NCBI RefSeq assembly: GCF_024227715.1
Contig: NZ_CP100448.1
Coordinates: forward strand, 992,001 to 1,056,000
DNA length: 64,000 nucleotides
Direction: 5' to 3'
Source: Halomarina litorea
GTDB taxonomy: Archaea; Halobacteriota; Halobacteria; Halobacteriales; Haloarculaceae
Of this stretch, positions 17,916-20,380 are shown piece by piece. Each line of letters begins with the position of its first letter. Positions within the stretch are counted from its first letter, which is position 1. Position numbers and translations under genes: made by a program. The notes under the pieces are model-generated. The model worked only from the letters and a program-made list of their open reading frames with translations, was not told the DNA's origin and made no database searches.

Positions 17916-18245
17916 CTACGTCCGGCCCGCGCCCTTGACCTGTTCGACCTCGGCTTCGACGTGGATACCGTCGGGGAAGCTTCGCTGGGCGGCGTCGCGG
18001 GCGAACTCGTCGTGGCCGACGATGCGCATGGTCCGGGTGTACACGGAGTAGTCCCACGACTCGAACTCGCCGCCGTCGGGATGGAGGCGTTTGGGCTGCG
18101 GGACGCGATACTCCGTCGGGGGCCTCGGGTGGGGACCCTTGCACTCGACGCCCTTGCGGGCGGCGCTGGTCTTGATGTCCGAGACGACCGATTCGAGGAC
18201 GTTCCGGTCGCCGCTGGTGAACGTGAGCGTCGTGACGAAGGCCAT
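17916..18245 (-). CDS. ribosomal protein uS10-like paralogue
   Basis: A 109-residue protein with the S10 fold order: an N-terminal strand (VTTLTFTSGDRNVLE), a helix (VVSDIKTSAARKGVE), a conserved KGPHPRPPTEYRVPQ loop as in uS10, the YSVYTRTMRIVGHDEFAR strand and a C-terminal EVEQVKGAG. The canonical archaeal uS10 gene is usually next to EF-1 alpha; here no translation gene is nearby, so this is the second S10-like copy found in haloarchaea. It might replace S10 in special ribosomes or have moved to another role. Convergent with the PH-like gene. Confidence 0.75.
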   Translation of the reverse strand: MAFVTTLTFTSGDRNVLESVVSDIKTSAARKGVECKGPHPRPPTEYRVPQPKRLHPDGGEFESWDYSVYTRTMRIVGHDEFARDAAQRSFPDGIHVEAEVEQVKGAGRT

Positions 18246-18334: not shown

Positions 18335-18826
18335 ATGATAGAGGCCACGAGCTCCGGAGCGATCCTGTTCCGCGATACCCGTGGCCGTCGCGAGTACCTC
18401 CTGCTCAAGTCGCGCACGGGCGACTGGGAGTTCCCCAAGGGCGGTGTGGAAGGGGAAGAAGAGCTACAGCAGACGGCCATCAGGGAAATCGCAGAGGAAG
18501 CCGGCATCGAGGACATCAGACTCGTCGACGGCTTCCGCGAGGACTACGACTACATCTTCGAGGCGAACGGGAACACCATCCACAAGACGGTCCACCTGTT
18601 CATCGCGAAGTCCTTCGAGGCGAGCGCCGAACTCTCGCGCGAGCACCGCGACCTGCAGTGGCGCGACTACGAGCAGGCCGTCAACACCATCACGCAGGAC
18701 GGCCCCCGCGAGATACTCGAACAGGCCCACGAGTTCCTCGACAACGGCGGACTGGACGAACGAAACGGGCACCACGGCGGCGGCGAGGGCGCGAGCGACG
18801 ACAACGCGACGAGCGCCGAGAACTGA
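18335..18826 (+). CDS. Nudix hydrolase, diadenosine-tetraphosphatase-like
   Basis: A 163-residue Nudix enzyme. The full Nudix box is seen in GGVEGEEELQQTAIREIAEE followed by AGI, preceded by the WEFPKG segment typical of bis(5'-nucleosyl)-tetraphosphatases (Ap4A hydrolases). These enzymes cleave Ap4A to AMP and ATP with Mg2+ bound by the box glutamates. After the fold there is a Gly/His/Asp/Asn-rich disordered tail of about 35 residues. The next gene starts immediately after its stop (TGA then ATG at 18827), so Nudix and DUF5787 proteins are made from one transcript and may work together. Confidence 0.85.
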   Translation: MIEATSSGAILFRDTRGRREYLLLKSRTGDWEFPKGGVEGEEELQQTAIREIAEEAGIEDIRLVDGFREDYDYIFEANGNTIHKTVHLFIAKSFEASAELSREHRDLQWRDYEQAVNTITQDGPREILEQAHEFLDNGGLDERNGHHGGGEGASDDNATSAEN

Positions 18827-19870
18827 ATGCCCGGGGCGGAGTCGGAGTTCACCTTCGAACTCCGCGTCTGCCAGTGGGCCGAACGCCACTGGCCCCCCGA
18901 GCGGTCGCTCCCCGACGACCGGACCGCCCTCGTCGCCCGCCAGCTCGGCACGCGCGGGCGGCGCTGGGACACCCTCGTCGTCGAGTGCGACAGCGACGCG
19001 CTCGCCGCGCGCGCCGTCTTCGGATCCGACCGACTCGACTCGGACCTCCTGCACGTCGTTCGCGACGCCCCCGGCGAGTGGGCGTTCTACCGCGACGCGC
19101 TCCCCCATCCCGGCTACCCGTGGCGCTACGTCCGCGAGGCCATCCACACGGCCGAGGAGCGTGGAATCGTCGAGACGCGCCGCGCGGGCAACCGCATCGA
19201 GATTCGCCGGAAGTGGCACTACCCCGACTGGGTTCATCGGGTAATCGCCATCGAGAACAAGCCGGACCTCGACGCCAGCGCCGCCCGCCGCCTCGCAGAC
19301 CAGATGGAACGCGACGTGGCGCTCTCGCTCGCGGACGAGGTGTGGGTCGCCACGCGCGCGACGGGCGAGTCCGTCGAACCCGCCCTGCTCGAACGCCTCC
19401 CCGTGGAGGTCGGACTGCTCGCGTTCGACTCGGAGGCGGGGACGGCGAACGTGGCGTGGCACCCCAACTCGCTCGACGTGGACGCGCCGGGGACGCGCAT
19501 CGAGGAGCGGCCCGCCGGGAACGCCCACGACGAGTCGGCCGCCCGCTTCGAGTACGTCGACGCCGAGTGGAAACGCGAGAAGCGCCTCGAAATCGCCGAG
19601 CGCGCCTACGAGCGCGGGTGGCGCGCCTACGTCGGCACGATGCGTCCGGACTGTCGGCACTTCGAACTCCGGGAGCGGGCGGGCGATACGCTCCCGTGGT
19701 GTGCGGCGAAGGGTCACAGCCCGACGGCCCGCGAGTGCTCGGGGTCCTGTCCGGAGTTCACGCCCGAACCGCCCGCGTGGCGGACCCGCGGGTGGCCAAT
19801 CGAGGGCGGGCCGGGGAAGGGGTTCAGGCGGCTGCTCGACCGCCAGCGCGACCGGACGCGCCGCCCATGA
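18827..19870 (+). CDS. DUF5787 family protein, candidate PD-(D/E)XK nuclease with C-terminal cysteine cluster
   Basis: A 347-residue protein I place in the haloarchaeal DUF5787 family, which has no known function. Reading the sequence, P133-D134, eight residues, then E143-N-K145 (YPDWVHRVIAIENKPDLD) form a PD-(D/E)XK nuclease signature. It is followed by a Q159-containing helix and the EVWVAT strand. An earlier WDTLVVE (48-53) could supply an extra acidic residue. The C terminus has four cysteines, C276, C292, C304 and C308, spaced like the iron-sulfur-ligating cysteines of Cas4/AddB-type nucleases. It is co-transcribed with a Nudix hydrolase. The nuclease reading is my inference and needs a profile search or structure. 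Confidence 0.72.
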   Translation: MPGAESEFTFELRVCQWAERHWPPERSLPDDRTALVARQLGTRGRRWDTLVVECDSDALAARAVFGSDRLDSDLLHVVRDAPGEWAFYRDALPHPGYPWRYVREAIHTAEERGIVETRRAGNRIEIRRKWHYPDWVHRVIAIENKPDLDASAARRLADQMERDVALSLADEVWVATRATGESVEPALLERLPVEVGLLAFDSEAGTANVAWHPNSLDVDAPGTRIEERPAGNAHDESAARFEYVDAEWKREKRLEIAERAYERGWRAYVGTMRPDCRHFELRERAGDTLPWCAAKGHSPTARECSGSCPEFTPEPPAWRTRGWPIEGGPGKGFRRLLDRQRDRTRRP

Positions 19871-19876
19871 GCGGGG

Positions 19877-20380
19877 TCAGTCCTCGGCTCCGGCTTCGTC
19901 CGCCGGTTCCTCGTCGAGGGCCTCGACGTTGAGGTCCTCGCGTTCGACGGCGAGTCGGAACGTGGGGACCGTCTTCTGGACCACGTCGACGAGTCCCTTG
20001 TCCTCCAGTCGCCGCAGGCCCGAACGCACCGAATCGGTGTCGCTCTCGACGCCCGCGTCCCGGAGTTTGTGGAGGACGCTCACCACGCTCTCGCTGTCCT
20101 CGTCGGGGCCGGCGAGCACCTCGGTGATGCGGACCTGCAGGGGCGGGACCTTCACCACCTCGGGGTCCATCTCGATGCCGACGACGCCCGCGGCGTCCTG
20201 TGTCGCCCGGATGAGGCTGTTCTCGTCGCGGAAGTAGTACTCTTTCAGTTCGGACTCCAGGTACTGGTGGACCTCGCTGCCGCTCTCCATCTCCCAGCGC
20301 TGCTGTAGCTCCTTGTTCTTCGTCGGCTGAAGCTCCACGATGTCCTTCAGCCGGCCTTTCGCTTCCTCTGAAAGCGTCAC
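19877..20380 (-). CDS. DUF5797 family protein, winged-helix-like
   Basis: A 167-residue haloarchaeal protein starting at a GTG (20380). The N-terminal portion (EEAKGRLKDIVELQPTKNKE) and a middle block (VVSVLHKLRDAGVESDTDSVR, then a helix SGLRRLEDKGLVDVV) look like a winged-helix domain with a recognition helix. I recognise it as the DUF5797 family. The C terminus is an acidic tail. A regulator role, possibly DNA-binding, is an inference. The promoter region (TTGTAC at 20405-20410 on minus) lies about 25 bases upstream. It converges with the DUF5787 gene, with 6 bases between the stops. Confidence 0.65.
   Translation of the reverse strand: MTLSEEAKGRLKDIVELQPTKNKELQQRWEMESGSEVHQYLESELKEYYFRDENSLIRATQDAAGVVGIEMDPEVVKVPPLQVRITEVLAGPDEDSESVVSVLHKLRDAGVESDTDSVRSGLRRLEDKGLVDVVQKTVPTFRLAVEREDLNVEALDEEPADEAGAED

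Follow-up and report, generated by a model that had tools for sequence, protein, structure and literature searches.

DUF5787, a paired haloarchaeal protein family with a predicted PD-(D/E)XK nuclease core and a candidate PCNA-binding motif in one paralogue

The window analyzed here comprises 64,000 nucleotides of the haloarchaeon Halomarina litorea (contig NZ_CP100448.1, positions 992,001–1,056,000; genome size 3.9 Mb) and contains at 18827–19870 on the forward strand an open reading frame (ORF) of 347 residues, with its ATG at 18827 and its stop within 19870, belonging to the domain-of-unknown-function family DUF5787. Together with a second DUF5787 paralogue of the same genome, its product probably constitutes a haloarchaeal pair of metal-dependent PD-(D/E)XK nucleases working in replication or repair, one of which (paralogue B) would be tethered to the clamp PCNA, the window's protein being paralogue A. 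The nuclease call is supported by the invariance of the motif residues in two clades combined with the predicted fold.

The ORF matched the Pfam profile PF19100 over its full extent with 408 bits (E 3e-122; curated cut-off 25 bits), bearing out the family identity given in a first-pass annotation of the sequence. Conservation was assessed on 175 homologues, 118 of clade A and 57 of clade B, with one sequence (L223) reassigned from B to A. Residues E7, E11, E19, R38, Q39, R45, D48, R62, Y132 and W135 in the amino-terminal part as well as E143, N144, K145, P146, Q159, D163, E258, G264, W265 and R266 further downstream were invariant in all 175. P133-D134, E143-x-K145, Q159 and the cysteines 276, 292, 304 and 308 all lie at the positions named by the first-pass annotation, which overlooked C15, E7 and E11 and recognized neither the winged-helix insertion nor a second paralogue.

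Structure prediction was performed with AlphaFold2 (AF2). The full-length model based on 49 sequences was poor, with a predicted local distance difference test score (pLDDT) of 50.5 and no confident model for the carboxy-terminal part; its VIA-align matches were mostly restriction-endonuclease-like structures of the same superfamily as those of the later model, and its best Foldseek matches were not significant. The second model, covering residues 1–215 and based on 73 sequences, reached a mean pLDDT of 73.1 and a predicted template modelling score of 0.61 and displayed the α-β-β-β-α-β core order expected for this superfamily, with a winged helix-turn-helix inserted between strands 2 and 3 (element boundaries in Table 1). 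The top VIA-align match was PaqCI, with a Z-score of 11.3 over 134 residues at 3.3 Å, which is above the Z of 7–8 typical for models without a clear match, followed by XisH (9.5 and 9.3), AF2093 (9.1), AF1548 (8.6), CdiA-CT (8.4), Card1 (7.5), NucS (7.4), EndoMS (7.2) and Bse634I (7.1). The matches spanning approximately residues 1–215 were filled by a single superfamily, SPO1766 and YaeQ also being among them, and the insert separately matched winged-helix regulators of the MarR/BlaI/ArsR type. Like the PaqCI nuclease domain and the PD-(D/E)XK superfamily in general, the model combines the core order with an acid on strand 2, an E-x-K ending strand 3 and a helical glutamine; unlike them, DUF5787 carries the winged helix between strands 2 and 3, and no sequence similarity to them was detectable. 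A sequence search of solved structures with DUF5787 likewise found nothing.

The location of the motif residues in the model indicates a revised assignment of the catalytic center. In PD-(D/E)XK enzymes, strand 2 starts with the first acid, strand 3 finishes with the E-x-K and the following helix provides the glutamine; as a rule, a strand pair lies between motifs I and II. In the AF2 model D48 stands at the head of strand 2 and E143-x-K145 at the close of strand 3, while core helix 2 contains Q159. The first-pass annotation had correctly recognized E143-x-K145 and the subsequent glutamine, all invariant, but had taken P133-D134 for the first motif. This candidate was rejected, as D134 is an aspartate in only 139 of the 175 sequences (79%; otherwise E, A, N, G, Q or S) and sits just before the strand carrying E143, leaving no room for a strand pair between motifs I and II. 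Since D48 is an invariant acid at the expected place, it is most likely the first catalytic acid in the modeled fold. That DUF5787 might instead be a catalytically idle DNA-binding protein of the same fold, as they exist within the superfamily, appears highly unlikely given that both of the anciently separated paralogue clades keep D48, E143, K145 and Q159 without exception.

The DUF5787 sequences formed two clades, A and B, separated by a long branch. Both paralogues were present in 80 of the 81 genomes of the order in a set of 393 sampled evenly across the phylum, and the simplest reading of the sequences would be an old duplication followed by vertical descent. The B proteins terminate in a Q-x-x-L-x-x-[FWY] motif in 57 of 57 cases (one more fetched sequence belonged to A), whereas the background frequency of this motif near the carboxy-terminus was 0 of 1978 conserved ORFs from the A neighborhoods. 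Similar ends are found in known clamp clients encoded by the H. litorea genome (FEN1, QTGLDDWL; NucS, STTLDTFVDRK), and the consensus PCNA-interacting protein (PIP) box of Haloferax volcanii is QxxLxxFx (PMC7776575). The B carboxy-terminus thus has the appearance of a PIP box, which should tether B to PCNA. The B copy of H. litorea (L038:3016-3978, corresponding to G000:C1 ~2941015-2941977 on the minus strand) ends with RQSGLDRFR and shows a shifted last cysteine pair (CSC) compared to the other B proteins. In most genomes the B locus lies between an MBL-fold gene and the genes for aIF2-γ and a PIN protein. HVO_1902, by its number a neighbor of aIF2-γ, might be the B gene of H. volcanii, a guess from synteny and numbering; HVO_1900 is an FCF1-like PIN gene (PMC12175516), and HVO_1902 is a conserved hypothetical protein whose abundance was strongly decreased in a quorum-sensing study (PMC12240190).

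Several observations weigh against the assignment as a nuclease pair. Only one of the five AF2 models of residues 1–215 was good (73.1), the others ranging from 41 to 57, and Foldseek with this model gave no match below E 0.05. Profile comparison by hhalign of DUF5787 with NucS and Cas4 did not surpass unrelated controls, the profile being shallow with an effective sequence number (Neff) of 2.6; for the PF01939 proteins the values were 0.4–0.7%, equal to the controls. Furthermore, the PIP box is absent from the inspected A tails, including that of the window's protein, and the literature searched contained no activity, metal or genetic data on DUF5787. As Foldseek alone remained non-significant and the other four models were worse, we regard the modeled PD-(D/E)XK fold as very likely, not as proven.

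The distribution of the family is confined. Above the cut-off, DUF5787 occurred in 80 of the 81 same-order genomes and nowhere else among the 393, with two or three matches in each positive genome, where the third can represent one gene split in two. Among 14 control genomes, only Haloferax volcanii contained it. Possible homologues outside the haloarchaea (genomes G233, G008 and G139) were rejected, their PF19100 matches being weak (E 3e-4 to 0.14) and scoring under the cut-off; those of G233 and G008 covered a carboxy-terminal stretch, in frames unlike genes. No copy was found in viral contigs and phages, the plasmid records yielded one match on an 828-kb Natronorubrum replicon, and the PADLOC defence library contained none. 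We infer that DUF5787 is a haloarchaea-specific, chromosomal family. This distribution bears on the alternative that the same fold cuts RNA or nicked or foreign DNA in a housekeeping or defence role, with the PIP box serving localization only. The fold serves many substrates, its best structural match PaqCI is a restriction enzyme, and B adjoins aIF2-γ and the FCF1-like PIN gene, with A near a uS10-like gene; nevertheless, a near-universal chromosomal gene with no phage or viral match, one megareplicon among the plasmids and no PADLOC counterpart, a nearly invariant member of the core genome that is equipped with a PIP box, does not resemble a defence system, which renders this alternative unlikely.

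For the preferred reading as a repair-associated nuclease pair, the following mechanism can be envisaged. The core of helix-strand-strand-[winged helix]-strand-helix-strand would position D48, E143 and K145 for catalysis, assisted by a helix 1 acid (E11 or E7) and Q159, while the inserted winged helix might grip duplex DNA. A metal site formed by Cys276, Cys292, Cys304 and Cys308, perhaps together with Cys15, would stabilize the carboxy-terminal part. B would be held at PCNA by its PIP box and A, devoid of a clamp motif, may work in the same pathway either alone or alongside B, so that the pair would serve replication-coupled DNA repair or the processing of DNA intermediates.

Among the archaeal repair proteins described with a PIP box, NucS and NreA come closest (PMC4929162). 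DUF5787 shares with NucS/EndoMS the nuclease core fold (Z 7.2–7.4) and a carboxy-terminal PIP box, the latter in the B paralogue only, but lacks the amino-terminal OB/Sm-like domain, the nuclease core starting already at residue 4, and adds the inserted winged helix and the cysteine region. NucS/EndoMS is also the patchier of the two, with a PF01939 match missing in two of seven genomes of the order, the seven including the H. litorea genome itself. The latter encodes its NucS/EndoMS (L141, G000:C4:81467-81796, minus strand) on contig C4, which is different from that of the window. As to NreA, compared by description only, a Cys4 site is present in part of the Nre proteins, and NreA is reported as having no known biochemical activity (PMC4929162). 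As a more speculative extension, which we hold to be rather doubtful, A and B could be the two parts of a nuclease system for DNA repair or mismatches that is guided by PCNA and specific to haloarchaea, possibly a heteromer whose metal site responds to redox state, and that is kept even where NucS/EndoMS is missing.

The cysteines 276, 292 and 304 were present in all 175 sequences, C308 and C15 each in 172. As the four carboxy-terminal cysteines are conserved, they likely form a metal site, with Zn or an iron–sulfur (Fe-S) cluster as its candidate occupants. The first-pass annotation had compared them to the cluster cysteines of Cas4, AddB and Dna2, a comparison which holds for their near-invariance but not for the Cas4 signature. 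The DUF5787 spacing is C-x14-16-C-x11-12-C-x3-C, whereas C...CX2CX5C was found in 31 of 31 Cas4 sequences; a loose CX2C-x3-9-C occurred in 0 of 117 A-labelled and 7 of 58 B-labelled sequences (labels before L223 was moved), and 26 of the 58 B-labelled sequences have an extra cysteine at position 279. In view of this difference, a Cas4-type Fe-S cluster is a tentative proposal. A Cas4-like staple is nonetheless a possible arrangement, if less likely than not, because C15 lies on core helix 1 of the AF2 model: an Fe-S nuclease as in Cas4, AddB and Dna2, sharing with these the nuclease core, conserved carboxy-terminal cysteines and one near-invariant amino-terminal cysteine, would tie the amino-terminal helix via C15 to the carboxy-terminal cysteines, three of which are invariant, and Cas4 likewise uses one amino-terminal and three carboxy-terminal cysteines. 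The four carboxy-terminal cysteines, however, already suffice for one metal site, the CX2CX5C signature is absent, the profile comparison with Cas4 described above did not exceed the controls, and the carboxy-terminal part is without a confident model. Cas4 was not among the leading matches in the structural lists, which in itself does not exclude a relation to it.

The paralogue A locus comprises genes for an M20 amidohydrolase, a uS10-like protein and a Nudix hydrolase on one side and a convergent DUF5797 gene on the other. The Nudix ORF stops directly before the ATG of the DUF5787 gene (zero gap), and the closest solved relatives of its product are diadenosine tetraphosphate (Ap4A) hydrolases. 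The first-pass annotation had proposed an operon encoding a maintenance pair; the two genes do abut here, and a same-strand Nudix gene is found within 6 kb upstream in 66 of 80 A loci, with 14 loci lacking one, but the gap amounts to at most 60 bases in only 7 of the 66, to 61–400 in 33 and to more than 400 in 26. As few loci share the zero gap seen here, a functional pair, in which nucleotide-pool cleaning would be coupled to the nuclease, is weakly supported. With the gap exceeding 60 bases in 59 loci and the M20, uS10-like and DUF5797 genes retained about as often, the Nudix proximity rather reflects general synteny, and we consider such coupling quite unlikely. What links the family to DNA maintenance is the PIP box at the end of B, not the Nudix gene.

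Table 1 Features of the DUF5787 paralogue A gene and its neighbors in the window.
Feature	Position	Strand	Basis
DUF5787 paralogue A, predicted PD-(D/E)XK nuclease, 347 aa	18827..19870	+	PF19100 408 bits; predicted fold
Core helix 1 (residues 4-21): invariant E7, E11, E19, near-invariant C15	18836..18889	+	AF2, conservation
Core strands 1 and 2 (residues 32-38, 49-55): invariant R38-Q39, R45, D48	18920..18991	+	AF2, conservation
D48, likely motif I acid	codon 18968-18970	+	AF2, conservation
Winged-helix insert, residues 67-132	19025..19222	+	MarR/BlaI/ArsR-type matches, Z 6.4-7.6
Core strand 3 (136-144) and motif II E143-N144-K145	19232..19261	+	AF2; invariant 175/175
Core helix 2 (150-165; invariant Q159, D163) and strand 4 (171-177)	19274..19357	+	AF2, conservation
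Motif AERAYxxGWR in a conserved helix (residues 257-266) that runs into the cysteine region	19595..19624	+	near-invariant in A and B
Four-cysteine region C276/C292/C304/C308, putative Zn or Fe-S site	19652..19750	+	conservation, spacing
Nudix hydrolase, upstream of the nuclease gene	18335..18826	+	PF00293; PDB 3i7u E 3e-14
DUF5797 gene, convergent	19877..20380	-	PF19110 231 bits; neighbor in 72/80 loci
uS10-like protein	17916..18245	-	PF00338 60 bits; neighbor in 61/80 loci

Among the neighbors, the Nudix protein is more conserved (79–90% identity) than the adjacent nuclease (64–78%). The uS10-like gene beside it encodes a short, separate protein with a uS10 domain. Between the carboxy-terminal helix-turn-helix of DUF5797 and the winged helix of DUF5787, a faint, non-significant similarity was observed (hhalign 5%).

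DUF5787 was named nowhere in the open literature searched, other reports not being excluded thereby, and the literature on haloarchaeal nucleases and PCNA partners yielded no description of it. Proteins found exclusively in haloarchaea have been surveyed (PMC3287961). What appears to be new is the assignment, at family level, of DUF5787 to a known superfamily, together with its unusual winged-helix insert, its distinctive cysteine site and a sister protein bearing a PIP box. Resistance to DNA damage is high in haloarchaea, and Haloferax volcanii serves as a model organism for replication and repair in archaea. Taken together, nearly all haloarchaea carry a two-gene family hitherto listed only as a "domain of unknown function", whose predicted nuclease core, putative duplex-binding insert and the clamp tag of the sister protein would make it a concrete repair enzyme candidate, open to testing by gene deletion in a tractable laboratory species.
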